The notes under the pieces are model-generated. The model was not told the DNA's origin. It searched no databases and saw only the letters and a program-made list of their open reading frames with translations. Positions 29,123 through 47,303 of a stretch of DNA of 64,000 nucleotides are shown here, one piece after another. The first letter of the stretch is position 1. The number at the start of each line of letters is the position of its first letter. The translations under genes were made by a program, and so were the position numbers. The stretch covers positions 11,844,001-11,908,000 of the forward strand of contig NC_088321.1 of the NCBI RefSeq assembly GCF_910592395.1. The letters run 5' to 3'. Source of the stretch: Lineus longissimus. Its lineage: Eukaryota; Nemertea; Pilidiophora; Heteronemertea; Lineidae.

Positions 29123-29201
29123 TTTCCGTGCATTTTACCTGATATATGATGTTGGCACTGTTCACTGCATGTACATAATTTTACTAGTAAATAAATAGAA
29201 A

Positions 29202-30458: not shown

Positions 30459-30537
30459 GGTGCTGCAAGAACAAAAGTTCGCTCCAACACTGAATACTAG
30501 ATAAATGAGTTTTACTAGTGATTTTCTAAGTAATTAA

Positions 30538-30774: not shown

Positions 30775-30831
30775 GAATAATTTACTTATTTGATAAAAGC
30801 TAAATTTGAAAACGAAAATTTGCTTAAGTAA

Positions 30832-31599
30832 ATGGTTACTGTAATGAACATAGATTCAAGTGACTATCCAGATCAGAGTTCAAGTGATTTAACAGTCAAT
30901 CTCAAGACTGAAATTCAGGATGCATGTAGCATCACTTTAACTTTTGCAGTAATACCTTGTACATTCTACAACATAAGTGCAGCCAGGGAGAATAACCGAA
31001 TCAAAGTTAAGGGGTTTGATGTGGCAGAGATTACGCTACCAGATGGTCTCTATGACCTACAGAGCTTTTCAAAAGTATTTGCGGATAAGTTGAAAGAAAA
31101 TAGTATGAGTAGAGGTGCTGTCAGATTTGACCTTGAAGAACCAACAGGTAAGGCCATCTTACACTTCCTAAAGAGAAAAAATGAGGCGCATTATCAGATC
31201 TATTTTCTTGGTAAAAGTAACGAATTATTTGGCATGAAATCAGAATGGCCTTACCCTTTAGACAATAAAAGTAAGGATGATGTTGTAAGCGAGAAACCCA
31301 TCAATTTTAGACCAATTAACCATTTTGTTTTTCACTGTGACATAATCGAATCTAATAGTGTATTAAGTAATGGTGAAGCATCTGATGTGCTAACCACAAG
31401 ACCAATAAAGGAAGCTAATTTTGGGGATTTAATAGCATACACATTTGAGAAACCAATAGCAATTCCCTGTAAACCAAGATTCAATAAGCTGAATATTCGC
31501 TTAACTGATGAAAAAGGTGAAATCATCGATCTTAATGGTCATAATGTACAGTACCAATTGGTATTAACTCGAGCTATGCTCTCAGGGACACATCATTGA
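30832..31599 (+). CDS. Polinton minor capsid/penton-like protein
   Basis: A 255-residue frame starting at TAAATG. Beta-rich, with a C-terminal strand block LNIRLTDEKGEIIDLNG that is echoed by the protein at 40078-41028 (KFEITDENGKLVNFRG). Its position after the major capsid gene and its single-jelly-roll size fit the Polinton minor (penton) capsid protein. The last residues (RAMLSG) and the reading-frame end come from a partial double-hairpin element at 31571. Confidence 0.6.
   Translation: MVTVMNIDSSDYPDQSSSDLTVNLKTEIQDACSITLTFAVIPCTFYNISAARENNRIKVKGFDVAEITLPDGLYDLQSFSKVFADKLKENSMSRGAVRFDLEEPTGKAILHFLKRKNEAHYQIYFLGKSNELFGMKSEWPYPLDNKSKDDVVSEKPINFRPINHFVFHCDIIESNSVLSNGEASDVLTTRPIKEANFGDLIAYTFEKPIAIPCKPRFNKLNIRLTDEKGEIIDLNGHNVQYQLVLTRAMLSGTHH
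31571..31590 (+). repeat. Partial double-hairpin element
   Basis: GAGC-TAT-GCTC and TCA are intact; the second stem is lost (GGGACACATC). Looser relatives occur at 30451-30480 (AGCAC..GTGCT then GAAC..GTTC) and 33916-33940 (TGACTTAAGTCA then GAAC..GTTC), both intergenic. Confidence 0.7.
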
Positions 31600-31621
31600 A
31601 ATTAAAATTCATTGGAATTAA

Positions 31622-32080
31622 ATGGCTGGCATTGGCATGTTATTTGGATCTGCAATAATCAATGGATTAGCATTCACTGGATCCGGTTACCTTTTTAAAA
31701 AACTAGACAAGAATGGCTATGAGACTGAAGTGAAAAGACATGATTTGGCTCAGGAGCAATTACAAAAAGCTTTAACCGAATGGGAGGAGCATAGGAAAAG
31801 TACCATTGACTTCGTTAATCTTGAATTAAAGAGAGAAAGAGACGCTTCTATTGATTTTAACAATACTGATTCAGCACTTACTGTTTACAATCATTTACAT
31901 CCAGAAAGAACTATTGTACTACCTCAGCGACCACAATTAAGTGATTACTACCAACCTAGTGATGAAATGAAGAAATACGAGTACCTATGGATTATCCTAG
32001 GACTTAGTGGTTTAGGGTTAATAATTTATTATTTTACTAGGGTTAGAAAGACTAAGACAACTGATCGGACACAGTCCTGA
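31622..32080 (+). CDS. Polinton membrane-associated protein, 152 residues
   Basis: The start is in TTAAATG. It has a glycine-rich hydrophobic N-terminus (about 3-25), a charged coiled-coil middle (about 35-80) and a transmembrane helix near residues 121-140 (LWIILGLSGLGLIIYYF) with a basic tail. The last residues and stop lie in a half double-hairpin at 32067. Function unknown; possibly a capsid-associated or membrane-active protein. Confidence 0.6.
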   Translation: MAGIGMLFGSAIINGLAFTGSGYLFKKLDKNGYETEVKRHDLAQEQLQKALTEWEEHRKSTIDFVNLELKRERDASIDFNNTDSALTVYNHLHPERTIVLPQRPQLSDYYQPSDEMKKYEYLWIILGLSGLGLIIYYFTRVRKTKTTDRTQS

Positions 32081-32110
32081 TGATCGGACACAGTCCTGAG
32101 AGCATAGCTC
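32067..32110 (-). repeat. Double-hairpin element: half core and R core
   Basis: Half core GGAC-ACA-GTCC at 32067-32077, then R core 32086-32110 (GGAC-ACA-GTCC, TGA, GAGC-ATA-GCTC). It supplies the last codons and stop of the gene ending at 32080. Confidence 0.88.
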
Positions 32111-32124
32111 GATGAGAAGCGGGA

Positions 32125-32745
32125 CTAAGATTTTTGATGGGAAAGAGTATATCCAAATGGATGTTGTAGTCTAATGATCAGTTTTGATCCTTTTTTCATC
32201 TTAAGTTCTTCTATGTAGTACTGTCTTTTCTCCTTAGGAATAACACTGTTTTCTTCTAAGGCATCTTTCATGGCTGATTCATCCTTATTAAAAAATAATA
32301 CTAAAATTCTTATGTTCTCTCTGTAGTCCTTAACAACTGAATTGTACTTCTGAACTAGTAACCAAACAGTGAGATTGTAGTGCCTGCCGGAAAAGGCAAG
32401 ATTACATAACTCGGACACCTTCTTTTTTGTGTCTCTCAAATTAGCACAGTCATCAATGAGGAATAATGTGTTAGAACCAGCAAAGGTCAGAGTAGCAAAC
32501 TGAAGCACAAGGTCCAAATTACTGGCCACAGCTTCGGGATTAACTATGTAGACGTTCTTGTCTTGGTAAATCCATTTCCTTTCATATGTCTTATTGTTGA
32601 AATATGTTGGACAGAAAATTACTATGTTCTGGAACTTGTGCCGATACTCCTTTTCTAAGAGGTCAAGGGCAAAATATGTCTTACCACAATTGGTAACACC
32701 AGAAATTAACATATTGTGTGGCTCGTAAATAAATACTTCACTCAT
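32125..32745 (-). CDS. ATP: Polinton genome-packaging ATPase (FtsK/HerA type)
   Basis: A 206-residue intact frame with Walker A GVTNCGKT (residues 16-23) and Walker B TLFLIDDC (93-100), as in the A32-like packaging ATPases of Polintons and related viruses. It would pump the DNA into the capsid. Its start codon is only 4 bp from the divergent integrase start; the shared sequence CATTTAAATG (32743-32752) contains both starts. Confidence 0.92.
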   Translation of the reverse strand: MSEVFIYEPHNMLISGVTNCGKTYFALDLLEKEYRHKFQNIVIFCPTYFNNKTYERKWIYQDKNVYIVNPEAVASNLDLVLQFATLTFAGSNTLFLIDDCANLRDTKKKVSELCNLAFSGRHYNLTVWLLVQKYNSVVKDYRENIRILVLFFNKDESAMKDALEENSVIPKEKRQYYIEELKMKKGSKLIIRLQHPFGYTLSHQKS

Positions 32746-32752
32746 TTAAATG
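32743..32752. promoter_or_regulatory. Shared divergent start CATTTAAATG
   Basis: The palindrome holds the ATPase start codon (minus) and the integrase start codon (plus) 4 bp apart, each in a TAAATG context. Any initiator motif here would serve both genes. Confidence 0.5.
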
Positions 32753-33899
32753 AATGTAAAGGATGACACACAGCAGTATCTAAGGGATTTGTACTACAAC
32801 CCTGAGAGTCCCGTGGCTTACAGTTCTTTGAGTAAAATCTGGAAACAGGTCAAGGAAGATATGACTTCGTCACGAGAGCAGAGCACAACTTCGTTGTTAG
32901 GGACAAAGTCCCGCTCAGGAAAACTTATTAAAAAAAAAGAAGTGAAAGAATTTCTAGAAACACTACCAACTCACCAACTACACAAACCGGCCATTAAGAA
33001 ATTCACCTTCAGGAAGACAATGGTATCGTACATCGATCAACAATGGCAAGCAGATCTGGTTGACATGCAGAAATTCGAGAGTAAGAATAAGGGTTTCAGA
33101 TTCATTTTAACAGTCATAGATCTATTTAGTCGTTTTTCTTGGGCTCTAGCAGTTAAGAGTAAGAGGGGAGAAGAAATCAGAGATGCGTTTAAAGTGATAT
33201 TTGAGGAAGCAAAACCAACGAAAATCCAGTTTGATGACGGTAAAGAATTTTACAACAAACACTTCAAGGAACTCTTAACAGAAAATGACATAGAATGGTT
33301 CTCCACAAAATCTGATAAGAAGGCAGCAGTAGTAGAGAGATTCAATAGAACCCTTAAAGAAAAAATGTGGCGTTATTTCACCGCTAAGGAGACTGACAAG
33401 TGGATTGACGTTCTGGATGACCTGGTCAGCGGCTACAATAACACATTTCACTCATCAATAGGTATGAAACCTGTAGACGCCAGAAAGATGGAAAACGAAG
33501 GAACAGTGTGGTACAATCTTTACGGTCTTCACCTCAAAGAGACATTTGGTGATCCAGTACAAAGTAGGTGACAGTGTAAGAATTTCAAAGTACAAGTCCA
33601 TTTTCGGTAAAGGTTACATGCCCAACTACACTGAGGAGGTGTTCCAAATCAAACAGATCATCTTTACTCACCCTATCGTCTACCAGCTTGAGGATTACCA
33701 CAAAGAAGAAATTCAAGGATATTTCTATGAAGAGGAATTGAGCTATGTTCCTAATCCTGACCAGCTAGAGTACAAGATCGAGAAAATCCTAACGTACAAG
33801 ACCAGTAAAGGCAAGAAATACGGATTAGTGAAGTGGAAGGGTTACAGTGATAAGTTCAATGAATGGTTACCAGTTTCTGATATCAAATCATTGAAATGA
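32750..33899 (+). pseudogene. INT: Polinton retroviral-type integrase with chromodomain, frameshifted
   Basis: The first frame (32750-33571, 273 residues) has the rve-type catalytic core: D102/D105 in ADLVDM, D162/D163 in QFDDGKEF and E196 in VVERFNR. The second frame (33546-33899) carries the SH3-like part (YKVGDSVRI) and a C-terminal chromodomain (about residues 74-115, EYKIEKIL...LVKWKGYSDKFNEWLP). The two overlap by 26 bp in different frames, so the chain breaks near 33550 just after the catalytic domain. Residues about 38-58 fall in a degenerate double-hairpin region (32863-32912). A programmed shift is possible but no slippery signal stands out. Confidence 0.88.
32863..32912 (-). repeat. 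Degenerate double-hairpin copies in integrase N-terminus
   Basis: GAC-TTC-GTC, then GAGAGCAGAGCAC, and further on GGGAC-AAA-GTCCC. These are eroded copies read in frame in the integrase. Confidence 0.6.
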
Positions 33900-33987
33900 A
33901 ATAAAGTCTCTAAAGTGACTTAAGTCACAAGAACAAGTTCGAAAAACGTAATTTAAAAAAAAAATTACCTACTAAATAAAGAAAGAA

Positions 33988-35119
33988 ATGGATGGAGCAA
34001 TATTTGATAATCAAAATGGTATGATGAATCAAAATGATATGATGAATCATGATAATATGATGAATCAAAATATTCAGAAGTTTTTGTATTATTTGCATCA
34101 AAATAATATGTTAAATCAAAATCTGATAAATCAGATTATGTTAAATCAAAATATGATAAATCAGTTTATCTTAAATCAAAACATGGAAAATCAAAATATG
34201 ATAAATCAAAATAATATGATAAATCAGAATAATATGATAAATCAGAATAATATGATGAATCAAAACATGGAAAATCAACCTACAATTTATTGTGTTAAAT
34301 GCTGAGAAAAGAAACCTGAAATTAATTTCGAAAAGAACAGGCGTAATAAACTACTTGATTACTGTAAAGAATGTGGTTCAAGTAAAATCAAGGGATGTAA
34401 TAAATGTTATGAAAATAAATTACTAAGTGATGGTGAATTTGGTAAAGACGGAAATAGAGGTAACTGCAGATCATGTTTTAATTCATATTACAAAAAAGGA
34501 TTACCTTGACCAAAATGGTAATAGAGACAGACACAAAATTAGAGTTGGTCTAAACCGCATTTCTAAGGGAGAGTGTACCGGTAATTCATCATTCAATCTA
34601 GGATGTACAGACAGTTTCTTCTCACAGTGGTTAAAGTACCAGAGGAGTCTATCTCCAATAGGACAAAGTCCCGAGAACAGAGTTCGAATAGTAGAAGAAG
34701 AGTTGGATCATGTCTTACCAATCAAGGAATTCAAAGATAAACCTGAACTGTGCTTTGCTTGGTTTAACATTAGACCAATGTCTAAAACACAAAACAGACA
34801 GAAGAGTGCTAAAGTAGACTACACACAATTTAAGGATCAATTGGATAGGTCAATGGATTTCATGGTAAAAATGAGAAGTGAAAACTGGTTTGTCTTTCGA
34901 GACCAGGATGTAATACCAAATTGGAAAATAGTGATATCACAGCATTTCGGGGATTATCTTCGTGATGAAAATATGATTCTGCTTGATAGATTATCGAATT
35001 TAAATAATAACATGAGAATGAACCAGAACATTAACATATGTAGTCAGACAGAAATCATAAACGAGATGATTAAGTTGAATAATAGACTTGAAAGAAATTT
35101 ACTCTTTGCAGTGAATTGA
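33988..35119 (+). pseudogene. Polinton Asn/Met-rich zinc-finger and HNH-like protein, broken
   Basis: The first frame (33988-34302) is almost entirely repeats of Asn, Gln, Met and Ile (NQNNMINQ...) and ends at CVKC before a TGA (34303-34305). The same frame continues with a Cys4-type region (CKECGSSKIKGCNKC ... CRSC) up to 34509. A shift near the A-run at 34491-34497 leads into the frame ending at 35119. That frame has an HNH-like segment (LDHVLPIKEF ... FAWFNIRPMSKTQNRQK). A zinc ribbon followed by an HNH nuclease is a common pairing. A double-hairpin at 34661-34685 encodes GQSPENRVRI just before the HNH motif. Whether this was one gene or two is an inference. Confidence 0.6.
34661..34685 (-). 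repeat. Double-hairpin element in the HNH gene
   Basis: Core GGAC-AAA-GTCC, CGA, GAAC-AGA-GTTC, followed by GA. It is in frame and encodes GQSPENRV. Confidence 0.88.
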
Positions 35120-35138
35120 TTTTATTTTACTTAATTAA

Positions 35139-35390
35139 ATGAATAGAACTTGGGGTTACACAAAACGACCACGTAATTGGAAAGAAAGATTAGAACGATT
35201 TCATAGAGAATTAGAGGCAGAAGTAGAGTCAAAGTTGGAGCCTGGTCCCGAAAAACCTTTAAAACCTGCTGTGCCTGTTGGGTCAGAAAAACCTTTAAAA
35301 TTTAATGTACTTCAAAAACCTGTAGTGTCTGTAGGATCAACACTAAACACTAGAAATGACAAAACAACTGATTCTAGTTATTCCCACTAA
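35139..35390 (+). CDS. Small basic Pro-rich Polinton protein, 83 residues
   Basis: The start is in TTAAATG. It has an Arg/Lys/Glu-rich N-terminus (RPRNWKERLERFHRELE) and a short repeated Pro/Lys segment (EKPLKPAVPVG / EKPLKFNVL). Not recognised. It precedes the membrane protein gene by 4 bp, so the two may be co-expressed. Confidence 0.45.
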   Translation: MNRTWGYTKRPRNWKERLERFHRELEAEVESKLEPGPEKPLKPAVPVGSEKPLKFNVLQKPVVSVGSTLNTRNDKTTDSSYSH

Positions 35391-35394
35391 TTAA

Positions 35395-36056
35395 ATGGAT
35401 GGAGACAATAAGGTTTATCCAGATTTAAGTAATTTAAACTCTGAAAGTCATTTGAACTATGAACGGTCTGAAAAGCATACAGAAAGTAACCCTCAGGCTT
35501 TCAGACTACAACAAATATGTGAGGTTAAGAGTTTCTTAGAAAGCGAGATTGAATTTAGAAGAAAGATATTTTCAAAGTACAAAAAAGCATTTAGCGTAAT
35601 TACTGGCATTAGCCATTTCCTTAATTTTGCCAGCGTTGCAGCCGGATCTGTTGGTGTTTCCGCTCTAGCTGGTGTCATCACTTAGCTTTGGGTGGCTTAG
35701 CTTTGGGTGGCGTAACAATAGGTAGTGCCATTATTTCATCAGCCTTAGGCTGGGAGAAAAAGAATATTCTTAAGAAAATTGAAAAACATGAGAATATCAG
35801 AATGTTGGCAATTTCAAAACTGAACACAATCAATGATTTGGTTAGTAAAGCCTTAACCGATTCTCACATATCTACAGATGAGTTTACTTTGATTCTCAAG
35901 GAGAAGGAGAAATACATTTCGATGAAAAATGCCATTAGGAAAAAACAAAGGGAGGCAAGTTCAGCTGTTGATGTAGAGTCTTTAAAGAAGACTTTTTTAG
36001 AAGAAGGAAAAAAACTAGCACAGACAGAGATGCTAGAAAAACTAAAAGTTCAGTAA
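35395..36056 (+). pseudogene. Conserved Polinton hydrophobic/coiled-coil protein, frameshifted
   Basis: The first frame (35395-35685) starts in TTAAATG and runs into a hydrophobic Gly/Ala stretch (FLNFASVAAGSVGVSALAGV). It stops at 35683 inside a 15-bp tandem duplication (CTTAGCTTTGGGTGG). The second frame (to 36056) continues the hydrophobic stretch and then a helical region (ISKLNTINDLVSKALTDSH) that I recognise as part of a family often found with invertebrate Polintons. The break looks like a replication slip. Function unknown. Confidence 0.65.
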
Positions 36057-36070
36057 ATCAAACAGGACCC

Positions 36071-36141
36071 GGACTACGTCCAGAGAACAAAGTTCGACTC
36101 GAGCTATGCTCTCAAGACGAAGTCGGACCCGGACTACGTCC
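36071..36141. repeat. Double-hairpin elements: R core, F core and a half core
   Basis: R core 36071-36095 (GGAC-TAC-GTCC, AGA, GAAC-AAA-GTTC), F core 36101-36125 (GAGC-TAT-GCTC, TCA, AGAC-GAA-GTCG) and half core 36131-36141 (GGAC-TAC-GTCC). Confidence 0.88.
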
Positions 36142-36249
36142 TAATCCTAATGTGGTGTATCACTATCACTATTATCATGACTTCGGTGTTAGGGATGAAT
36201 TTCACCAAGTAACACTACCATCAGCACCACCCTATTCATTAGTTTAATC

Positions 36250-36304
36250 GAGCTCTGCTCTCAAGACGAAGTCCTAATCGAACTTTGTTCTCTGGACGTA
36301 GTCC
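36250..36304 (+). repeat. Double-hairpin element, two tandem copies (type example)
   Basis: Core 1 (36250-36274): GAGC-TCT-GCTC, TCA, AGAC-GAA-GTCC. Core 2 (36280-36304): GAAC-TTT-GTTC, TCT, GGAC-GTA-GTCC. Each core is 25 nt: stem 4, loop 3, stem 4, spacer 3, stem 4, loop 3, stem 4. The period is 30 bp. The first stem changes from GAGC/GCTC to GAAC/GTTC, a compensatory change. In this strand sense the order is called F; copies on the other strand are R. Confidence 0.9.
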
Positions 36305-36307
36305 GAC

Positions 36308-39300
36308 TCAAGCGAAGTTTGAATCGCTGTAATCTATGTAGCCTTCATAATACATTCCAAATGGTAAGGTGCTTATTCCATCTTCAAGTATGAACCTCTT
36401 GTCATCAAAAGGACTGAGGCTTTTTTTGTCAACTTCTTCCAAATAGATTTGGTGTTTATCTGATCTTAAGTGTCTCATCTTGTGGTAAAATGACCTACTC
36501 TTTTCAAGACAATCAACATAGTCATCAAATGAGATATTTCTCCTTACTACATTCTTGGCAATACCCTTCAATTTCTTAGAATCGTAATCTTTTGTCGATC
36601 CTTGCTCTCCAGACATAGTCTTGGTCCTGTAAGCGTACATCTTACTTCTCAGGGCAATGAATTCAGTCATCTCTACTCCTCCTAGCTCATCCTTAAAGTA
36701 GCCTGGTACCTTCTTCTTACTGGTATCATAGAGTGGATGATCTTTTGGATAATTACTGAAGTCAAAATAGTGTCTCAACTCCTTTAAGTCTTTAGTTAAG
36801 TCATCAGTATTAATGTTAAGTACAAAGGAATCTGTATCTAGATACAGCAGTTCAATATTTTTCTCACCAAAGTACGGTTGAAGAACTTCATAATAGAATT
36901 CATACATTAATAATTTAGACAATTCAAGTACTGAAGCTCCTATGTAGATTGGTTTGTTGAATTTCATTGATGTTTTCCTCATGCTAATAGCAGCATTATG
37001 TTCGTCAAATACGCATATCGATGAAAACCTGGGATTGGCCATTACATTCCTGGCTCTCTCCCCGTCCGATACAAATTCAATTTCAACCCTGTTCCTTACA
37101 TTCTCACAAGTTTTTCCATAGAACGCATTGTTCATCAGTTTAAAATAGTCTTTCTCAAAATCAGTCTTAGAGTCCATACGTCTTTTAGTGTTAAAATCAA
37201 TGTATGGTGCTAACCACTTTGATTGTTTAAAGCTTATCACTGAATGAACCCTCTTAAGTACCATTCCGTGCTTTAGGTAAAATTGTAGCATTCTGTAATG
37301 CACTATGTAATTAGTTTTATCCTTTTGTGTTAGTATTAGTTTCTCTACATTTGATCTTTTATCATCACCCAGTAACTCTCTCTGGTAAGGACTTAATTCA
37401 TCATCTTCAATAAAGAGAGATTCGGGACAGAATGGAAAGTTCCTTGACTTAAATTTAATATTTCCTGGATACTCCAAATCAACCTCTAAGAAGTAGCCTA
37501 CTTCACTATCACTTGGAATTGCCATAATCTGCTCTTTACTGATAACATTCATGTTAAGTCTAGCTTTGTCCTGAGAGCATAGCTCGAGTGGATCAATATC
37601 TATCATTTCAAAACTACCATAGGGTTGAGGTTCCATCATGGACCAGCCGTAGAGATTATTTGCGTCTACGTAGAGTAGTTTGTGGTGTTCATCTGCCTTG
37701 ACATGTCTTGTTCCCATAACACCCGAAATTCCACCTCGTATTGCTTTCTCAAAAGTAAGTAAGATGTTGGTATCAGTCAGTAGTTCTAGGTTTATTCCTG
37801 TGTACTTCAAACCAGCTTGCCAGGTTAGGCCTGGTGCCGAGTAACAGTGACAGGGATCTATCTGAAAGTAGTTCAAATTGACATCCCTGAATTTCTCAAA
37901 TAAATCAGCTAAAAGGATCACATCAGTTTTGAGGTAGAGGTCAATGAACTCACCGTGATTCCTGATCTTGAAATGATCCCATATTACCTTAGCCTCATCA
38001 TAGGCAGAATCAGGTGCCATTTCATTTTTCAATTCGTCAAAAAACATAGACTTTTCTAGGTAAGTAACATTGTAGCTTTCATGTGATGTGTAAAAAGAGT
38101 AAGGTACTGAACCCTTCTTCCTCAATAGCTTAAAGTCAGTGGTATTTGGGAACAGCTGTCTGGTAATTTTAAAATCATCATCCAACATTGATTTGGTTAT
38201 GTTGTCTAAACTGGACTGCAGGAATCTGTACGAGTCCAAAAACCTGAAACAACCGAACTGAAATGAGATGTATTCCTCTGATGTTTTGGCAAGTATTTTC
38301 AGTTTCTTGTACTTCGGTAGCTTATTCATTAATTCTTTAATAAATAAGTGAGAATCGTAATTACTGAGATTGTGAAAAAACACTGGAACAAACATAGCTT
38401 TCTTTTCATTCAAATTACACGAGTTGTGAGCAGCACCTCGATATCTACCACAGTAGTGATCATGATCCTTGACCTTGTCATAACCCAAAGGTTGATTACA
38501 ATAGTAACAATGTGTTTCTAATTGATATTTATGCCAGTCTTCATCTGTCATTGTTAGAGGAAAGTTACAGCTCAATAAATTAGAGAATTGTTCTTCCATC
38601 CTGATTAACCAATTACAGAACACATCTACAACATCAGCACCACTGTGAGACACATACTGGCTACTGTAAAGGTGTGTGTAGTCTGAGTGAACATAAACAC
38701 CAACAGCTGATGCATTTTGTTTAAAAAGTTTCTTTGAACTCGGTTCTTTCATCATAGGTGGCTCTACTGATACTACTGGCATGTTGCCTTCGGCAGAAGA
38801 ACAAGGTTCGCTTATCGCTTCGAAATCAGCATAGATCACAAACGGAACTCTATTTTTGAATGAGTGTTTTTCAAATTTAATTTGTGACCATTTACTGTTA
38901 GGTGGAGGCAAAGTAATCTTACAGTAATCGTGTTCTCCACATTTCTTTTTATGTTTATCTAGTGTTGACTTCCTGTAAAAGTAATTCATGCATCTCCTGC
39001 AAAGATACACTCTATGAGCTAGTGTCCTGAAGAAAAGATTGATGTCTCTTATGTACATGAAATGGTCCTTGAAATACAACAGATCGATGACATCATCATC
39101 ATCATAATTCTTGGACAGGTAGAGAGGTTCTAGTTTTGCCTCACAGGTGCTCTTAGCCCATTCGTTCTCTAACTTGAACACATTAATCTTGAGATTATTA
39201 TCACTCTCTATCTTAGGGATATCCTTTTGAATACATACAGGAAATGATTTGATTTTGATATCGGTAGTGATATTGAATGTACTCTCGAGCTCTGCTCTCA

Positions 39301-40021: not shown

Positions 40022-40077
40022 TCTATTTATTAGATTAAAATTTATTAAATTCAATAAATATCTTGAATTAAATAGAA

Positions 40078-41028
40078 ATGGACTTCATAATCAATGAACA
40101 AGAATGTAATGAAGCCAAATTTGAGTACTACTTAACAGACCAATTAGACATAAAATCCATTACTTTGAAATCGATAACCTTTTACAATTCATGGTGGACA
40201 GGTGATTTTCTACCAGAGGGAGTCAGGATTTTCTCATTTCTAGTCGAAATAACCAGAATTACAACACATGAGCCCTTAGATAAAAAATTATGGTGTAGGA
40301 CATTATTTGCTCCTGGACTTGAAACAGATACACTTGAAAAGGAAGTCATGAAAATTTGCGAACGGCATTTGGAAAATGATTCTACCACAACTAAAGACAC
40401 CATTACTCAATACACATTTCCATACTCTCGACATTTTAGTTTAAGTGAGTTTTGTGAGGTATGGCAAAAATACATAAAAGAAATTGGAGTAAGCCATGTG
40501 AAAATTTACTGTGATAACAATAATTACATAACCCTTGAACTTACAGAGGATAAAGAGTACCCTCTGAAAGTAGACAAGTTAGATAAAAATGAAAAAATCA
40601 AGATTGAGAGAAACACAGAAGGTTTTCAAATAAGCAAAACCATAAGAGAGGTGATAGAAAAACAGCTCACAGTGGTGAATGAGTGGTTTGGCTTTAAGCA
40701 AACTAAATTCACCAAGAAAGGAAAATACTACTCCACAAGACCACTCAACTTTTACAGGAAATATCTATTCCTGCAAGCTAATTTGGTTGACAAAGCTAAT
40801 ACCCTCTACAACAATAAACCATCTAACATTTTCTGCATCATACCTGTAGAAGATGGTGACCAAATAAAAATGCAGCGATACGAACAGAATTGTAAGAAAA
40901 CGATAAATAAGTGTACTAATCACATAAAATTCGAAATCACTGATGAGAATGGTAAGCTAGTTAATTTCAGAGGAACAGAGGTTTCTTTAGAGTTAAGAAT
41001 CGAGCTTTGCTCTCAAGACGAAGTCTGA
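40078..41028 (+). CDS. Polinton protein with penton-like C-terminus, 316 residues
   Basis: An intact frame divergent from PolB, starting in AAATAGAAATG. The C-terminus (HIKFEITDENGKLVNFRGTE) resembles the end of the protein at 30832-31599, suggesting a second beta-rich capsid-associated or fibre-like protein. The last residues (ELCSQDEV) and stop are encoded by a double-hairpin element at 41002. The remainder is unrecognised. Confidence 0.55.
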   Translation: MDFIINEQECNEAKFEYYLTDQLDIKSITLKSITFYNSWWTGDFLPEGVRIFSFLVEITRITTHEPLDKKLWCRTLFAPGLETDTLEKEVMKICERHLENDSTTTKDTITQYTFPYSRHFSLSEFCEVWQKYIKEIGVSHVKIYCDNNNYITLELTEDKEYPLKVDKLDKNEKIKIERNTEGFQISKTIREVIEKQLTVVNEWFGFKQTKFTKKGKYYSTRPLNFYRKYLFLQANLVDKANTLYNNKPSNIFCIIPVEDGDQIKMQRYEQNCKKTINKCTNHIKFEITDENGKLVNFRGTEVSLELRIELCSQDEV

Positions 41029-41086
41029 CTGAGACAAGGTCCAGAGAACAAAGCTTGACTCGAGCAGAGCTCTCAAGACGAAGTCG
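41002..41086. repeat. Double-hairpin cluster (F, degenerate R, F)
   Basis: 41002-41026: GAGC-TTT-GCTC, TCA, AGAC-GAA-GTCT (second stem compensated to AGAC/GTCT). 41033-41056 is a degenerate R copy. 41062-41086: GAGC-AGA-GCTC, TCA, AGAC-GAA-GTCG. Confidence 0.88.
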
Positions 41087-41189
41087 GACCACCTGATGAG
41101 ATCATTCCATTAAAGGAATAGTACATTTCTTCTCTTTAACTACAGGTTTAACAAGAGGGTTAATTGATCCCTTCATGACTGCTTCATTC

Positions 41190-41244
41190 GGACTTTGTCC
41201 TGAGAGCATAGCTCAATTAGGACTACGTCCAGAGAACAAAGTTT
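41190..41244 (-). repeat. Double-hairpin elements, two tandem R copies
   Basis: 41190-41214 (GGAC-TTT-GTCC, TGA, GAGC-ATA-GCTC) and 41220-41244 (GGAC-TAC-GTCC, AGA, GAAC-AAA-GTTT), with a 30-bp period. Confidence 0.88.
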
Positions 41245-41608
41245 GATTCAAGCCTGATCGCTGCTCTTTACTTACTTTTTTAGGAAGTTTCTTAAACATA
41301 ATGAATGTTGCTAAAATAACGGCACCTAAACCTAGTACATAGACATAAGTATTACTACTAGATTCACGCAGTGATACATCAGTATTTTGAGATTGTGGTT
41401 CTTCTTCCTCTAATTCTTCTTCCTCCTTTTCCACAACTCTGTTGTTTGGTGAGGAGTCCTGTACTTTAAATGTCGTCTTATCCTTTTTTATCCTCTTAAA
41501 TTCCTTAGATCTTCTACCCAGTTCTCTAGACCATGCTAATTGTTTCTCTGATCGAGGTTTCTTAGACACTGAAACTTTAGTAGTATCAGTTACAGTTTCA
41601 AGTTCCAT
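41213..41608 (-). CDS. Single-pass membrane protein of the Polinton, 131 residues
   Basis: The start is in ATAAATG. The basic N-terminal half (EKQLAWSRELGRRSKEFKR) is followed by an acidic run (EEEELEEEE) and a transmembrane helix at about residues 88-105 (YVYVLGLGAVILATFIMF). The C-terminal 13 residues come from a double-hairpin element (41220-41244). Similar small Lys/Arg-rich one-TM proteins are known in Polintons; role unknown. Confidence 0.55.
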   Translation of the reverse strand: MELETVTDTTKVSVSKKPRSEKQLAWSRELGRRSKEFKRIKKDKTTFKVQDSSPNNRVVEKEEEELEEEEPQSQNTDVSLRESSSNTYVYVLGLGAVILATFIMFKKLPKKVSKEQRSGLNQTLFSGRSPN

Positions 41609-41630
41609 TTATCTTGGCCGAATTTAATTC

Positions 41631-41655
41631 GAACTATGTTCTCATAACCAGGTTA
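41631..41655 (+). repeat. Double-hairpin element with fully rewritten second stem
   Basis: Core GAAC-TAT-GTTC, TCA, TAAC-CAG-GTTA. The second stem is TAAC/GTTA and pairs perfectly. It lies between two minus-strand genes. Confidence 0.82.
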
Positions 41656-41657
41656 AT

Positions 41658-42479
41658 TTAGTCTTCTTTATCATCACTACCTGTGATATCTAGACTTTCA
41701 TCTATTGATTTGTCACATTTAGAGACAGTCATATTTGGCTTATTCATATTTGATGCAGTCATACTCAATGCAGTCATAGATGATTCCTCATGACAATGAC
41801 CTAAAGTAATAAGTGTTGTTGAGGCAAGTGCAGTTAATGGTCCCATTCTCAAACTCAACCATCCAAGCCATTTATCCAACTCGTTAGTTATCAAATAATC
41901 ATTTCTAAGATCATGATAAAGATTATCTTCATCATCTATTGGTAATAACCACCTTGATAATTTAGTGTAAGCTTTAATTACTGTCTTACCCAAAGAATCA
42001 TTAAGTCTGGCAGCCATCTTTGTTTCATACATTCTATGGTGTTTTAAGATTTCTTTTTCAGTCATATTATCTAAGTCATTAAAAGTTATTTGTTTATTAA
42101 GGAAATCCTTGCTTTTACCAGTTGCAACTAGAATCTCTAAGTATTGTTTGGCTTTAAGGCCACTATCAGTCAAATAGTTCAAATTTTGTTGATTGCTGGT
42201 TGATCCTAGTTGGCAACTAGAATTGACTATTCCTTGACTGGGATTAACTATTCCTTGACTAGGATTAACAAAATTTGAACTATTCAACTGCTTGTTTGAA
42301 ACTTGTTGATTTGTAGAGCAGTTCTGTTGAAAGTTAGTTCTGTTTTGTTGGTAACTACCAGTGTTCTGTTGGTTAGAAGCCCCAACTCGAGCTAAGCTCT
42401 CAGGACTCATAACACCAATCTGTTTCATCTGTTGTTCAATCACTGCAGATGTCTGACTATTCATTTGCTGATTATTCAT
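41658..42479 (-). CDS. Gln/Asn-rich Polinton protein, 273 residues
   Basis: The start is in TTTAAATG. The N-terminal third is Gln/Asn-rich and contains a duplicated NPSQGIV. The middle (about 105-215) is a helical region (KQYLEILVATGKSKDF ... LDKWLGWLSLRMGPL), and the end is Ser/Thr/Met-rich with a DDKED tail. SPESLARVG near the N-terminus is translated from a partial double-hairpin at 42389. I do not recognise the family. Confidence 0.5.
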   Translation of the reverse strand: MNNQQMNSQTSAVIEQQMKQIGVMSPESLARVGASNQQNTGSYQQNRTNFQQNCSTNQQVSNKQLNSSNFVNPSQGIVNPSQGIVNSSCQLGSTSNQQNLNYLTDSGLKAKQYLEILVATGKSKDFLNKQITFNDLDNMTEKEILKHHRMYETKMAARLNDSLGKTVIKAYTKLSRWLLPIDDEDNLYHDLRNDYLITNELDKWLGWLSLRMGPLTALASTTLITLGHCHEESSMTALSMTASNMNKPNMTVSKCDKSIDESLDITGSDDKED

Positions 42480-42530
42480 TTAAAATTATGGAAAAATGAC
42501 TGTTAAGTGCAAAATGCTGTTTTCACAACT

Positions 42531-43670
42531 TTATTGCATCTTAACACTAGCTCGAGCTATGCTCTCAGGACGAAGTCCGGCTCGAGCTATGCTCTCAGGA
42601 CGAAGTCTGGCTGGTGTAAACTTAATATTACTGATGCAGTTAATGTCTCGACCTGCACTGGCACTCAGTAAAACGTCAAACTGCTTGTCAATATCCTGGT
42701 CATATTCCTTCTCAACCTTGTAATTCTGGAAGAAAATACTTTGAGTGAAATCATACCATAATATCTCCAAATCATTTACTCGCTCCTTGTTGGTTAAAAA
42801 AGGTGTAAATATTACATAATCAATTTTCAGCGTTTTAAAGGCTTGGTGTAAAAATACCTTGTAGTTAATGGTGACCTTCACACCACAGTAATGCAGAAAT
42901 CTAAGGAAAGCATAGTACACTAGTCTAAGGTCAGTGATATTCTCATCGGTTAATTGCGGTTTACCAATTGCCCTGTTAATAAATTCAATGGCAAGAAACC
43001 AATCATATTCCTCACAGTGAAATTTAAAAAGCATGGCTTCACCATGTAACCCTTGGTTACAAAACTTAGAGGGGAGAGTGTTAATACCCATTTTTAGGGC
43101 TGACTGAAGAGTATTTTCATATCTCTGCTTACTAAGACATTTTCTGTGACTTGAAAAGTAGCACTGTAAATACCCTTCCACAAAGTCCTTTAAATACTTA
43201 ACTGCCGATTCGGACAGCCGACTCCATCCAAGTTTCCTTAGAATACTGTCAAAGTAACGTGTCTTGTTGTCAATATTGATCTCAAGAGTTTTAAAATCAT
43301 CGTCGTAAGTAGTCGAATTGCAATTGGTGCAGAATTGATACTTCACAGTTTTAGCTGCGTACCTTGCTGAATTCAAGTTTTTTTGATACTCAAAAAGTGT
43401 CCACCTTTTACAATTACGGCAGAATTGAGCATTAGTGTTGGTACTGACGTCATATTCTTTCATTCTTGGCAGGACTACTTTGATTGTCTCAGTCGAGCTT
43501 TGCTCTCGGGACTTTGTCCTAGTCAGACTTCGTCCTGAGAGCTCTGCTCGATCCATAACCCTAGGACGAATGTATCCTTTAAGATTCTCATTGTTCCACT
43601 CGAGCTCTGCTCTCAGGACGAAGTCCGACTCACTAGAATAATAATCTTTTAATGAGATGTATTTATTCAT
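42531..43670 (-). CDS. Zinc-ribbon protein, possible late-transcription-factor relative
   Basis: A 379-residue frame. Two CxxC pairs (FCRNCKRW ... FCTNCNSTTYDD) form a likely zinc ribbon, followed by an all-helical region (KTRYFDSILRKLGW ... RLVYYAFLRFLHYCG ... DLEILWYDFTQSIFF). This layout recalls VLTF3-like proteins of large DNA viruses, but that is a pattern-level guess. Both ends are built of double-hairpin DNA: SDFVLRAELE and DRAELSGRSLT near the N-terminus, and two tandem copies of LRPESIARA at the C-terminus. Confidence 0.5.
   Translation of the reverse strand: MNKYISLKDYYSSESDFVLRAELEWNNENLKGYIRPRVMDRAELSGRSLTRTKSREQSSTETIKVVLPRMKEYDVSTNTNAQFCRNCKRWTLFEYQKNLNSARYAAKTVKYQFCTNCNSTTYDDDFKTLEINIDNKTRYFDSILRKLGWSRLSESAVKYLKDFVEGYLQCYFSSHRKCLSKQRYENTLQSALKMGINTLPSKFCNQGLHGEAMLFKFHCEEYDWFLAIEFINRAIGKPQLTDENITDLRLVYYAFLRFLHYCGVKVTINYKVFLHQAFKTLKIDYVIFTPFLTNKERVNDLEILWYDFTQSIFFQNYKVEKEYDQDIDKQFDVLLSASAGRDINCISNIKFTPARLRPESIARAGLRPESIARASVKMQ
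42554..42608 (+). repeat. Double-hairpin elements, two tandem F copies
   Basis: 42554-42578 and 42584-42608, both GAGC-TAT-GCTC, TCA, GGAC-GAA-GTCC/GTCT. A separate partial copy (first stem only) is at 42389-42406. Confidence 0.92.
43495..43626. repeat. Double-hairpin elements F, R and F
   Basis: 43495-43519 (GAGC-TTT-GCTC, TCG, GGAC-TTT-GTCC), 43525-43549 R (AGAC-TTC-GTCC, TGA, GAGC-TCT-GCTC) and 43602-43626 (GAGC-TCT-GCTC, TCA, GGAC-GAA-GTCC). All lie in the 5' part of the minus-strand 379-codon gene. Confidence 0.9.
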
Positions 43671-43718
43671 ATTTACATAATAATTATTTTTTTAAACATT
43701 GTTTTGATAGAAGGTCAC

Positions 43719-45350
43719 CTAAGACCTTTTACGTGATTTTACTGTTTTACGTGTTTTTAAGGCTTTAACACCCCCAATTAAACCATAAATTATGGAGCTC
43801 ACAATAGCAATAACTGCTATTATCAGATGTTCGGCTAGAAAGCCAACAACTGCACCAATTGTTTTCAGGAGAAATGATACGATAGAACCGATGATTCCCG
43901 GTAAAGCCGCAGCTGATTTCTTGGCTAGTTCTTTTAGCCATTCAGCAAACTTCTTGAGACCTTCTTTTACTTTATCTGGTATTGATGGTTTTGGTCCTGG
44001 TTCTGGTGTAGGTCCTGGAGTTGGGTCTGGTCCTGGAGTTGGGTCTGGTCCTGGAGTTGGGTCTGGTCCTGGAGTTGGTTTTACAGATTTAGTGGCACCA
44101 CTTAAAGCACTACTGATACTAAGACCTAGAGTTGTAAATGTCATTACAACAGCTGTTATTATGGCGCTAATAGTTACACCATATGTCTTAAAAAGTAACT
44201 TTATTCTGTCCTTCAGAGGAATAGTTGAATCTGGTTTCTTTAGAACATCAACAATTAAACGTTTAATTCTTCTAGTTTGTGACTCCCTGTCATTGTCTAA
44301 CCTCCATACCTTTGACTGTTCCTCATGCAATTTGTCATTTAGTTCATCTATTTGCTTTTTCAACTCCACCGTGTCTTTAGAATCTTCTTCTACAGACTTT
44401 ACATAGTCTCTTGTTAAATTATGAAGTTGATTTTCTAGTTCTTGTATTTGCATGTCCTTATCCCTCTTTACTGCAGCTAGTTTATCACCAGCCTGTTTTA
44501 ACCCTCTAAGTTCTCTCAAGGCATATTCAGTAAAACCCAGTGTTTTAAGTTCATCATCATTAGAATCTATCAGTTTATCTATTGGTTTGTTTGAACTGTT
44601 TACCTCATTAATTACTGCCTGTGTTTCAGGGGTTACTAATGTAGGTTCCCTTACTGGTGGGTCAGGTGCAATCACACCTCTAATCATGTCAACAAATCTA
44701 GTACCAAACTTAGTCTTTAATGTGCCTTCAGCATAGAAGCTTCCATTATCCTTAGTTAAAGGAATTAACTTTATCTTTTCTCCATTTTTATCAGAATATT
44801 CAAATAAATTTTTGTTTCCTCGTTTATCTTTTATCAAATCAAATTCAGAATTTCTCGGATTGTAATAAAGTTTGTTTCCATTGTAACTAATGTGTGGTGA
44901 AAGATTACTCAATTTTTTCTTGTCATAATTCCAGAGTGATCCTCCCAATGCTGTATCAAGTTTATCCTCTATTGTATCGTAACTTAACTCCTTTTCCATC
45001 AATTCAGGGACAATACCTCTTACTCTTTCTGGTGTACTGAATGAAGTTTCAGTAGTAAGATTTTCACCTCCTGTGTTGTATGTTGTGCCGGCATCTTGAA
45101 AAGTTCTATTGATTTCACCTGTATTAGGATCTATCTCATCCATTTGGATATCTCCACCTCCTGTGTTGTATGTTGTGCCGTCATCTTGAAAAGTTCTATT
45201 GATTTCACCTGTGTTGTATCTTGCGTGAATATATTGATTAATTAAATCATTCTTTCTCATTTCTTGAATTTGTTCAAAAGTTCCTGATGATGATGATGAT
45301 GATTGTGAATCGTAATCATCCATTTCATAATTTTCACCTCCTTCAGCCAT
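43719..45350 (-). CDS. Conserved Polinton coiled-coil membrane protein, 543 residues
   Basis: N-terminal Ser-rich segment with a duplicated block (NTGEINRTFQD at two places), a coiled coil at about 265-360, a hydrophobic helix (GVTISAIITAVVMTFTTLGL, about 390-410), a PTPGPDP repeat (four units) and a C-terminal pair of hydrophobic segments (LPGIIGSIVSFLLKTIGAVV; HLIIAVIAIVSSIIYGLIGG) with a basic tail. I recognise the family as a frequent Polinton protein of unknown function. The frame is intact and free of double-hairpin elements. Confidence 0.65.
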   Translation of the reverse strand: MAEGGENYEMDDYDSQSSSSSSGTFEQIQEMRKNDLINQYIHARYNTGEINRTFQDDGTTYNTGGGDIQMDEIDPNTGEINRTFQDAGTTYNTGGENLTTETSFSTPERVRGIVPELMEKELSYDTIEDKLDTALGGSLWNYDKKKLSNLSPHISYNGNKLYYNPRNSEFDLIKDKRGNKNLFEYSDKNGEKIKLIPLTKDNGSFYAEGTLKTKFGTRFVDMIRGVIAPDPPVREPTLVTPETQAVINEVNSSNKPIDKLIDSNDDELKTLGFTEYALRELRGLKQAGDKLAAVKRDKDMQIQELENQLHNLTRDYVKSVEEDSKDTVELKKQIDELNDKLHEEQSKVWRLDNDRESQTRRIKRLIVDVLKKPDSTIPLKDRIKLLFKTYGVTISAIITAVVMTFTTLGLSISSALSGATKSVKPTPGPDPTPGPDPTPGPDPTPGPTPEPGPKPSIPDKVKEGLKKFAEWLKELAKKSAAALPGIIGSIVSFLLKTIGAVVGFLAEHLIIAVIAIVSSIIYGLIGGVKALKTRKTVKSRKRS

Positions 45351-45360
45351 AATTACTTAT

Positions 45361-46752
45361 TTATCTAACCATAAAAACAATCAATGTACCAACAACTGAG
45401 TAAAGCATGAATTTAATTGTTTCATGAGTATCATCCTCCTTCTCAACTTTGGTGTCAAGTTTAGTAGTAGTAGGAGTATTCTTTGAGGTTTCAGTTGTTT
45501 TTGGTGTATCAACATTACTCTTTGGTTTATGACTGGTCTCGAGCTTTGCTCTCGGGACTTTGTCCGTCATTGATGTACCAACGCTACTCTTAACTCTTAT
45601 TTTCTTAGAACTATTTCCTTCCATCAGTGGTGGTGGTAAGGTCTTTTTGTGGTTAATGTCATTCTTACCGGGTTTAGCATTTTTTGGCGCTATTAAAATG
45701 TTATTATTGTAGTTATCCAGCTTACCAATAACGAGTACCATATTTGATCCTATGACATACAATCCTGGTGATATTACATAATCTAGTCTTGTATGAGTGT
45801 CACTCACTGCTTTTTTATATCTTTGAATTGAAGTGGGAATATCAGGATGTTGATTAATCGAATCCTTTAATAGTTTGTTAAATTCCTTCTGTGCATCCAA
45901 TTCTGTACCCGGTACTCCAATTATTGGTGTTCTGGTCAACGCCTGAGCACCCAGAATACAGTAAACATATGTTCTTATTGTATCATTCAACCTCTCTATT
46001 CCAGGATTAGAGAAACCATTTGATTTAAATATCATGAATTGTTGATAGGTTTGACATTCATTTTGTGTAATTACATCAAATACATTCTTGTGTCTCCTGA
46101 CATGATCCTTGATGAAAATATCTGGATATTTGAAATTAGCCATTCCAGCATCCCAGTCTTTACTGAACATCGGTGGCATTCTATTTTCATGAACTTGCAT
46201 GAGGAAGAAATTGATTTTAGAATCATTGATGTAATATCCGGGATCAGTTATGTTCGGGTTGTAATCCGGTACACTCCATGACCTCCAACCACCGTTATTT
46301 TCAAACACCGAGAAATCGTACTCGTCTTTTAAACCAAATTCACTCAATAACCCTCCTAGTTTCCTACGGTTAATGTTATTGTTTGTCTCATTAAAATCAC
46401 TTTCACCTGGAATTGGTATCTCTAGATTCTTCATGATCTTCAATATTTGATAGTAAACATGAAACCTGTAAATTGACCTTAACAATGGGTCACTGTGATT
46501 CAAGTGATCGTCTATTGAAATACCACAACCTGTTGTAGCAAACCAAACAGCCATGTTAAATTGGTTCTGGTAAAACGATAATGGATTCTTTTCCAGTAGA
46601 AGACAGTTTTTCTTATTTTTCAGGCTCAAAAACCCAGGTGTTATCTTAGTTTCTTGTAGTCTGAAGAAGTTATTAGTATTAACAGTTACTTCTAAATTAA
46701 AGAAGTCATAGGTGAATTTACTTTTATGTTGATTTGCTATTGGATAATACAT
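45361..46752 (-). CDS. Conserved Polinton protein, 463 residues
   Basis: The start is in ATTAAATG. The conserved part (about 60-300) includes VWFATTGCGISIDDHL, RSIYRFHVYYQILKI and RLNDTIRTYVYCILGAQALT, which I recognise as a Polinton family without assigned function, probably structural. A low-complexity Thr/Lys/Pro tail leads to a C-terminal hydrophobic helix (FMLYSVVGTLIVFMV). TDKVPRAKLE in the tail is encoded by a double-hairpin at 45541. Confidence 0.65.
   Translation of the reverse strand: MYYPIANQHKSKFTYDFFNLEVTVNTNNFFRLQETKITPGFLSLKNKKNCLLLEKNPLSFYQNQFNMAVWFATTGCGISIDDHLNHSDPLLRSIYRFHVYYQILKIMKNLEIPIPGESDFNETNNNINRRKLGGLLSEFGLKDEYDFSVFENNGGWRSWSVPDYNPNITDPGYYINDSKINFFLMQVHENRMPPMFSKDWDAGMANFKYPDIFIKDHVRRHKNVFDVITQNECQTYQQFMIFKSNGFSNPGIERLNDTIRTYVYCILGAQALTRTPIIGVPGTELDAQKEFNKLLKDSINQHPDIPTSIQRYKKAVSDTHTRLDYVISPGLYVIGSNMVLVIGKLDNYNNNILIAPKNAKPGKNDINHKKTLPPPLMEGNSSKKIRVKSSVGTSMTDKVPRAKLETSHKPKSNVDTPKTTETSKNTPTTTKLDTKVEKEDDTHETIKFMLYSVVGTLIVFMVR
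45541..45565 (+). repeat. Double-hairpin element in the 463-codon gene
   Basis: Core GAGC-TTT-GCTC, TCG, GGAC-TTT-GTCC. This is the rightmost copy in the Polinton. Confidence 0.9.
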
Positions 46753-47303
46753 TTAATTTACTTGAATTTTTTTCCTTGAATTTTGGTTAATAACATTTGC
46801 CTTTAAACCATAGTGATATTAAGTTGTACAATGGCCATATCAGATGTTGCAGTAATTAATTATTTGTGCTTGCAAATTACAATGGCCATATCAGATGTTG
46901 CAATCATTAATTATTTTTGCTTGTCAAAGACATGAAAAGGCCTATTGTGTCTTAATGCGTTTATCCGACAGAATTTTAGAAAATATTTTCAGCGCTGAAA
47001 ATTATTTTTGCGGTCGTTAAAATAATGTCTGGAAATTCTGTCGGATAAACGCATTAACGAACAATAGACTTTTGTAATACTTTGGGACGTGAGTATTGTT
47101 TGGTAACATATGTTACCATGTACATGCAGACACTGTCAACATTATTTTAAATAGATTCAAGCAACAATGATTAATCACTGTAACAGCTGTATTGTAGGCC
47201 TACAGCATTTATTGGAATACGCTGGGACTATCAAGATGTGCGAACTTCAATGGTTCATTTCTCTGCTATTTCTCAATGGATATTTGCAATGTTGTATCCT
47301 TGG
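46753..47303. other. Polinton right subterminal noncoding region
   Basis: No gene. It holds a 51-bp tandem duplication (46827-46928, TACAATGGCCATATCAGATG...) and then a perfect 25-bp inverted repeat (46952-46976 and 47033-47057; TTAATGCGTTTATCCGACAG...) that extends imperfectly outward to about 46942 and 47067. A 16-bp palindrome, TTTTCAGCGCTGAAAA (46986-47001), sits in the loop. Confidence 0.85.

Follow-up and report, generated by a model that had tools for sequence, protein, structure and literature searches.

A 27-nt double-hairpin element of Lineus longissimus Polintons that is gained in steps of 30 nt and may be copied by template switching

A double-hairpin element of 27 nucleotides (nt) is scattered through a Polinton in a 64,000-nt stretch of the nemertean Lineus longissimus (contig NC_088321.1, positions 11,844,001 to 11,908,000; hereafter the window, in whose numbering all coordinates are given). 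In a site-by-site comparison of Polinton copies, many sites have been found where the element is present in one copy and a single trimer stands in its place in another. The net gain is exactly 30 nt, made up of the 27-nt unit and a flanking trimer, and such gains in Polinton DNA occur in either orientation, within genes as well as between them. This precise presence and absence between related copies supports one of the roles offered in the initial annotation of the sequence, that of a mobile mini-element, and the reading favoured here, with a probability of roughly 0.55, is that of a tiny, still spreading parasitic DNA element of Polintons that is copied by the Polinton's own replication through template switching. 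All copies in the window lie in a single Polinton:

28877..47549: Polinton holding all window copies, with 246-nt terminal inverted repeats (28877-29122 and 47304-47549), an A32 ATPase, an rve integrase and DNA_pol_B_2

The length of the insertions was established without use of the motif, by sorting all inserted strings of at least 6 nt between 34 Polinton stretches by length. Among the 294 distinct strings, 125 were exactly 30 nt long, 34 had 60 nt, 5 had 90 and one had 120, and none had 28, 31, 32 or 33; the strings are partly non-independent, in that one insertion may recur in several copies or with shifted ends, and the comparison is blind to long insertions. The element accounts for 111 of the 125 strings of 30 nt (at most 8 mismatches outside the loops), and in the remaining 14, seven (at least 12 mismatches) come from a coding repeat and several others resemble more divergent double hairpins. 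Some insertions are recent, two polymorphic 30-nt insertions being flanked by 788 and 800 compared bases that are free of substitutions. The direction of change was read from related polymerases of other species (54-60% identity), which were compared as proteins. The decapeptide is missing from 5 of 5 that reach site 36596 (in a clean alignment), from 6 of 6 at site 37560 and, in a variable region, from 5 of 5 at site 39286, and it is because these relatives lack the inserts that the change is taken to be a gain. The comparison of orthologous genes with and without a copy, as the initial annotation had proposed, thus uncovered precise insertions, with alleles that are empty at the exact trimer.

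The repeat unit consists of a hairpin of stem 4, loop 3 and stem 4 (4-3-4), a spacer of 3, a second 4-3-4 hairpin and one outer base at each end. In a scan of the window for 4-3-4 hairpin pairs the 4-3-4/3/4-3-4 layout proved exact, and the class that joins GAGC or GAAC to GGAC or AGAC was confined to 32-46 kilobases. In the window, the strict IUPAC motif for the double-hairpin core, GARCNNNGYTCTCNRGACNNNGTCY, was matched at 14 places within 32086-45565, every one of them in the Polinton, as opposed to none in 100 dinucleotide shuffles, so that the double hairpin described for the Polinton interior is confirmed. The unit had been put at 25 nt, and here the hairpin core stands and the length does not, since one outer base on each side belongs to the unit and a trimer flanks it. 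Strict-motif counts leave out degenerate copies; with these counted, a relaxed scan gave 25 recognisable copies spanning 31571-45565, all in the window Polinton, with 14 exact, 5 with one mismatch, 3 with three, and 3 with four or five (sites 31571, 38785 and 41631) that were accepted on hairpin or position fit. Elsewhere in the window the closest match in the same scan has 4 mismatches, in keeping with the reported absence of copies from the flanking host DNA, and Rfam at gathering thresholds gave no match in the window. The ends of the element have the form CGRRC, which is common to both. The copies are as follows, with open reading frames (ORFs) named by their coordinates and other Polinton copies by L numbers:

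31570..31596, plus strand: element with degenerate second hairpin (4 mismatches), in the C-terminal part of ORF 30832-31599
32085..32111, minus strand: element (exact motif) just past ORF 31622-32080, preceded by 19-nt single-hairpin repeats
32861..32887, minus strand: degenerate element (3 mismatches) in the integrase ORF, peptide MTSSREQSTT
34660..34686, minus strand: element (exact motif) in ORF 34427-35119, peptide IGQSPENRVR; also in divergent Polintons L020 and L028
36070..36096, minus strand: element (exact motif) in an intergenic cluster; not found here in L010, L011, L013, L015 and L016
36100..36126, plus strand: element (1 mismatch) in the intergenic cluster; absent in L011 and L015
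36249..36275, plus strand: intergenic element (exact motif), trimer AAT; absent in L010 and L015
36279..36305, plus strand: intergenic element (exact motif) of the GAAC/GTTC class, 30 nt past the 36249 copy
36596..36622, plus strand: element in the polymerase gene, antisense, peptide KTMSGEQGST; empty in L016, L017 and L026 (copy comparison)
37560..37586, minus strand: element in the polymerase gene, peptide LELCSQDKAR, plus-strand trimer AGT; empty in L013, L016, L017 and L023 (copy comparison)
38784..38810, minus strand: degenerate element (5 mismatches, both stems intact) in a length-variable part of the polymerase, GAAC/GTTC with TGCC/GGCA
39286..39312, plus strand: element in the polymerase gene, antisense, peptide TDFVLRAELE, trimer TCT; empty in L013 (copy comparison)
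41001..41027, plus strand: element (exact motif) closing ORF 40078-41028
41031..41057, minus strand: element (1 mismatch), 30 nt past the 41001 copy and in opposite orientation
41061..41087, plus strand: element (1 mismatch), 30 nt past the 41031 copy
41189..41215, minus strand: element (exact motif), plus-strand trimer ATT; empty in L013 and L016
41219..41245, minus strand: element (1 mismatch), 30 nt past the 41189 copy
41630..41656, plus strand: degenerate intergenic element (relaxed scan), GAAC/GTTC with TAAC/GTTA; in all seven relatives listed there
42388..42414, plus strand: degenerate element (3 mismatches) in ORF 41658-42479; variant in L013 and L016
42553..42579, plus strand: element (exact motif) at the C-terminal end of ORF 42531-43670, trimer GCT
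42583..42609, plus strand: element (exact motif), 30 nt past the 42553 copy
43494..43520, plus strand: element (exact motif) in ORF 42531-43670; L009 empty at the exact trimer AGT
43524..43550, minus strand: element (exact motif) in ORF 42531-43670, in opposite orientation to the 43494 copy
43601..43627, plus strand: element (exact motif) in ORF 42531-43670, trimer ACT; empty in L016
45540..45566, plus strand: element (exact motif) in ORF 45361-46752, antisense

It has been proposed that the stems of the element covary and that its loops vary freely. Covariation was examined in 59 of 64 distinct inserted 27-mers, those with at most 7 mismatches to a reference outside the loops, a choice that favours paired ones. 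In this set 20 stem cells are doubly changed, as opposed to 3.4 +/- 1.6 in 2000 shuffles (largest value 9), and 94.9% of stem cells are paired, compared with 90.2% in the shuffles. When the partners are slid by -3, -2, -1 or +1 columns, pairing falls to 32-41%, with 8, 6, 5 and 0 doubly changed cells. The covariation comes from few changes, GC to AT in stem 1 and GC to AT or TA in stem 2, and hence from few independent events. The claim therefore holds for the stems, whose covariation survives the comparison with shuffles and leaves the mini-element view in place, and is only partly right for the loops, which draw on a few preferred triplets (loop 1 mostly TAT, TTT, TCT or AGA; loop 2 mostly GAA, AAA, TTT or GTA) and are filtered by reading frame in genes. 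Of six copies folded, all six take the exact double-hairpin shape as DNA and five do so as RNA, the sixth having one extra pair.

The polymerase that replicates Polintons belongs to family B, is primed by a protein and displaces strands, and the polymerase of phi29, another member of family B, is reportedly known for chimeras in displacement amplification. In the mechanism proposed here, the element would have no enzyme of its own and would be copied by Polinton replication. The nascent 3' end would stall at a trimer such as ACT and pair with the same trimer beside a distant element, and the paired 3' end would then copy the 27 nt together with the far trimer of the donor. The new single strand would, in this model, fold into two hairpins, returning its 3' trimer to the original template. 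The hairpins, which may assist by keeping the new strand folded aside, would be what selection preserves, while the 30-nt length would follow from the mechanism and not from selection on the frame. Our inference is that the polymerase switches templates at short homologies while the Polinton is being replicated, and an enzyme of some other kind, with or without donor-carried bases, may act in its stead. The proposal in its full form, in which a transposase-free, self-templating element of 27 nt spreads via 3-nt homologies and hairpin snap-back in strand-displacement replication, carries one donor trimer and adds 30 nt, is tentative and is given somewhat less than even odds.

Evidence that bears on the insertion rule comes from the flanking trimers, which are mostly ACT, AAT, AGT or GCT, with T last in the GAGC-first orientation (mostly NNT). 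In 128 distinct contexts the left and right trimers were equal in 77, agreed at two bases in 37, at one base in 10 and at none in 4, and where an empty allele was available, it consisted of exactly one trimer for 127 of 131 distinct filled contexts. When 50 filled and empty arrangements were compared, both trimers equalled the target in 30, the right one differed in 11, the left one in 6 and both in 3. The 17 one-sided cases contain 18 mismatched bases, of which 15 adjoin the element and 3 are central, the outermost position having none (p = 1.9e-5 and 7e-4 under equal positions); for the 30-nt flanks, the difference from the best empty allele is 2.0-2.6% per base. Re-pairing of a 3' end predicts this pattern, because the last base must match and the copied inner base need not, and probably one of the trimers derives from the donor, copied under the requirement that its outer base fit the target. 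A clear preference is confined to the trimer at 18 non-nested target sites (A in 12, C in 10 and T in 14 of 18), which fits pairing rather than the footprint of a protein. Cores ending in G tend to adjoin ACT or AAT, and cores ending in T or C tend to adjoin AGT, which suggests at least two element subfamilies of opposite polarity.

The same trimers could have arisen if the element resembled a miniature inverted-repeat transposable element (MITE), with a Polinton or host transposase that recognises the folded or double-stranded 27-mer and cuts with a stagger of 3 base pairs (bp), and with later mutations making the trimers unequal. Such an origin would account for the fixed length, for the faithful target duplications in 30 of the 50 arrangements and for the CGRRC, the one sequence that the two ends share, and duplications of 3 bp occur in known superfamilies of DNA transposons. 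The unequal trimers are, however, many and ordered, with 17 one-sided cases (and 3 two-sided ones) whose mismatches mostly adjoin the element and, in the one-sided cases, spare the far base at a low background of flank differences, and in a GAT..ACT case the trimer is one that is found beside the same rare core elsewhere. The 27 nt are far shorter than known MITEs, and among 101 copies chosen by motif listing none lay outside a Polinton. A MITE-like origin is thus considered unlikely, though it deserves to be kept in view.

Another way to carry over one donor-derived trimer would be for a recombinase with a 3-nt crossover to act site-specifically on a 30-nt form, folded or circular, made of the 27-mer and a trimer; the coupling sequences of Tn916 and the folded attC sites of integrons offer likenesses. 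While this would fit the exact 30-nt gain and the partial homology between donor and target trimers, it makes no obvious prediction of the side on which mismatches are placed, and a double-stranded circle of 30 bp is mechanically implausible, so that the form would be single-stranded. A Pfam scan recognised the rve integrase, the A32/Zot ATPase and the polymerase among the Polinton ORFs (with a weak endonuclease VII match) and no tyrosine or serine recombinase, most of the ORFs being without any match. We regard recombination of this kind as improbable.

Several points weigh against template switching and against the reading of every difference as a gain. The trimer test draws on 17 one-sided cases, of which several are nested at one place and hence non-independent, and three arrangements fit neither trimer pattern. 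The left trimer almost always ends in T, as an enzyme that requires T would also produce, and the CGRRC on both ends might be a 5-bp terminal inverted repeat. In folding energy the copies do only modestly better than shuffles (z from -0.25 to -2.2), and the snap-back step belongs to the model. Site 36596 is occupied in L029 (540), a divergent Polinton with about 80% amino-acid identity, and L016, L017 and L026 lack the element there, a pattern suggestive of precise loss or of recombination between Polintons. Some empty alleles could likewise be precise losses, and recombination between Polintons could shuttle filled and empty stretches.

As described in the initial annotation, copies often lie in tandem with a 30-bp period and in both orientations. 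Neighbours at this spacing share the intervening trimer, and in 93 such pairs the cores differ in 81 and the orientations are opposite in 55, which indicates that most arrays arose by repeated insertion at the trimer, as opposed to simple tandem duplication. Old copies changed by tandem slippage and gene conversion alone, with no insertion at new sites, would explain the 12 of 93 adjacent pairs that have identical cores in the same orientation, the array at 42549 (that of the 42553 copy), which holds 0 to 4 copies in related Polintons, and the sites that are common to Polintons merely about 73% identical. The 18 non-nested sites at which the empty allele is a single trimer, the occurrence of both orientations and the differing cores of most neighbours speak against such slippage, which is rejected as a pure origin and considered very unlikely. 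A related observation concerns positions 32062-32099 of the window, where one hairpin of the element forms a 19-nt tandem repeat (TGATCGGACACAGTCCTGA), and the number of these units differs among L010, L011, L015 and the window copy, so that half-elements can expand independently.

The genes recognised in the window Polinton are as follows:

32125..32745, minus strand: A32-type packaging ATPase gene (Pfam PF04665, E 6.8e-15)
32750..33571, plus strand: rve integrase gene (Pfam PF00665, E 2.3e-12)
36308..40054, minus strand: family B DNA polymerase gene with in-frame elements (Pfam PF03175, E 7.9e-19)

Among 306 copies, 194 sit within an ORF whose frame is unchanged across the copy, 74 are bordered by an ORF on a single side, 29 have none next to them, and 9 stand between different genes or frames. 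The coding copies occupy all six classes of frame and orientation, and a stop codon lies inside only 2 of the 194. The TCA spacer, which is a stop in antisense phase 0, occurs in 0 of 28 contexts there and in 69 of 83 elsewhere (p = 4e-16), and TA-loops, a stop in antisense phase 1, in 0 of 12 there and in 37 of 99 elsewhere (p = 0.008); the contexts represent variants of a much smaller number of sites (below 10 for antisense phase 0), and the p-values overstate their independence. Since stop-carrying variants are missing from the frames in which they would be read, the genic copies look translated, which would add 10 residues each, with variants sorted by what the gene tolerates. The interrupted genes stay readable because each gain is exactly 30 nt. 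The integrase gene carries further in-frame elements in L013, L017 and L027. In the genome, at least 35 full-length polymerase matches, 99-100% identical in the aligned part, were found among the 37 of 1297 candidates that were scored; their open frames have 1248 to 1294 residues and form two ladders with rungs ten residues apart, from 1248 up to 1288 and from 1264 up to 1294, plus one of 1286, and 27 of the 35 are without an internal stop.

These figures also argue against an element that acts on RNA, whether as a bypassed insert, a splice-like unit or an RNA processing site. The trimers could serve as matching take-off and landing triplets, and the hairpins are predicted to form in RNA; the copies, however, lie in both gene orientations and in all three phases, stops are avoided, and DNA that is bypassed or spliced should escape a filter such as that on the TCA spacer. 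Translational bypass is rejected, and an RNA-level element of any kind is hardly credible. An RNA processing site, or a packaging or replication signal, had been suggested as the reason for the copies and finds no support, since position, number and orientation differ between Polintons and the coding copies are frame-open. Ancient conserved protein repeats, palindromic in DNA by accident, would account for the similar decapeptides that recur in different Polinton proteins. This explanation, which the initial annotation weighed against a mini-element, is refuted by the presence of copies in all six classes, by those that have no ORF on either side and by decapeptides that are polymorphic among paralogues and absent from the related polymerases, and the mini-element view stands.

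The distribution of the element was followed through one genome of 391,118,348 bases in 30 contigs, in which the strict motif has 2937 matches (1461 and 1476 on the two strands) at a chance expectation of about 0.2 for equal bases, and in which a reversed control pattern has none. Copies were compared in 38 stretches including the window (258,138 bases), which were chosen by contig order and polymerase length and not randomly; a recount gave 341 copies at up to 3 mismatches. The first 100 of the 2937 places are all on contig 1, and 99 fall in examined stretches, which are Polinton. Flanks of exact-motif copies were Polinton-like in 191 of 191, over at least 245 aligned bases each; 101 of these come from motif-listing stretches, and 90 come from polymerase-adjoining stretches that are Polinton by choice and carry no weight for confinement. 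Confinement to Polintons was thus shown for about 100 of the 2937 places. Five places that seemed scattered are divergent Polintons, about 73% identical in DNA. The window and the examined copies sit on chromosome-sized contigs, as opposed to mitochondrial ones, the mitochondrial contig itself lying outside the comparison. In IMG/VR there was no motif match, and none of 17 pattern-matching stretches was confirmed as a polymerase relative. Prokaryote contigs (257 Gb) gave 40 single-match stretches, below the chance estimate of about 120 for equal bases.

Palindromic elements of Rickettsia are mobile palindromes of about 100-150 nt that lie in frame in protein genes of a bacterium. The Polinton element is like them in its in-frame gene insertion (194 of 306 copies), and differs in its 27 nt and its eukaryotic host. 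The likeness to these palindromes and to fungal double-hairpin elements (DHEs) that was drawn in the initial annotation is borne out, both in-frame gene invasion and paired double hairpins having been found. Hairpin-forming mini-elements that move have been on record from mitochondria since decades ago. Palindromic repeats that have colonised large DNA viruses reportedly include the submariner MITEs of pandoraviruses. Among the titles and abstract openings that the literature searches listed, none describes hairpin mini-elements in Polintons.

DHEs occur in the fungal mitochondrial DNA of Allomyces, Schizosaccharomyces octosporus and S. osmophilus and are described as potentially mobile (PMC10085805). 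They resemble the Polinton element in being dispersed, adjacent pairs of short hairpins, some copies of which differ in one loop only. In fission yeasts they belong to mitochondrial DNA, are rich in GC and occupy intergenic regions or rRNA genes (PMC10085805), whereas the Polinton element is nuclear, lives in an animal, has a fixed 27 nt and a fixed 30-nt gain with a trimer, is mostly genic and numbers thousands of copies. Pairing-conserved adjacent hairpins and a presence and absence that fit mobility were found here as in DHEs; the element is kept apart from them, since its location is not mitochondrial and it follows, in addition, a rule of fixed length. By analogy, it appears to act like the mitochondrial DHEs, but with a fixed, frame-keeping length. 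Sponge mitochondrial repetitive hairpin-forming elements also form short hairpins, give double hairpins by tandem insertion and occasionally sit in genes without a frameshift, as opposed to which they are mostly intergenic and of various lengths, and the sections of that report on which we draw mention no fixed trimer (PMC2800124). The pithovirus repeats M1 and M2, palindromic and with putative target duplications, have likewise colonised a large DNA virus; they are described as about 140 nt long and intergenic, with inverted repeats of 47-54 bp and a putative TA duplication (PMC10664404), and the Polinton element has about a fifth of their length. The byps of Magnusiomyces capitatus mitochondria are short genic inserts, often with matching take-off and landing codons, which the ribosome is described as skipping (PMC5009743), as opposed to the Polinton element, which keeps frame and avoids stops as if translated.

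With thousands of copies in one assembled genome, filled and empty alleles, recent insertions and a reproducible rule, the mechanism is open to testing. If the proposed reading is true, the element would be a parasite living on another parasite, close to the smallest possible size, and would supply virus-like proteins with ready-made decapeptides in frame; it would perhaps be the smallest selfish DNA with a definable insertion rule, its 30-nt step letting it live in genes.

Membership of the host among the Polintons is supported by the joint presence of the family B polymerase, the rve integrase, the A32-type ATPase and the terminal inverted repeats. For ORF 42531-43670 none of 1201 candidates reached E <= 0.001 and the single-sequence fold was uninformative (mean pLDDT 36), and because neither relatives nor a usable fold were obtained, no mobilising enzyme was identified there. 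A search for solved relatives of ORFs 29202-30458 and 40078-41028 gave none at E <= 0.1. The integrase ORF stops at 33571, and the sequence beyond it (in 32750-33900 of the window) looks coding in another frame by eye, so that the integrase of the window copy possibly carries a frameshift. ORF 43719-45350 holds an 18-nt tandem repeat (44011-44078) whose unit number varies among Polinton copies. A metagenome polymerase, P0005, which is related to the Polinton polymerase, carries PF14528 and PF14890, which we take to be homing endonuclease and intein domains, and polymerases of this group thus also take large in-frame insertions.

Other mobile sequences are present in the window as well. Positions 2408-12175 form a separate element with inverted arms of 359 nt, 99% complementary and 9050 nt apart, which encloses an 81-nt tandem repeat and a 1121-aa ORF (4865-8230) that encodes a ubiquitin C-terminal hydrolase domain. 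Positions 24149-25327 hold an ORF of 392 aa with a DDE_Tnp_4 transposase domain, presumably of the Harbinger type.

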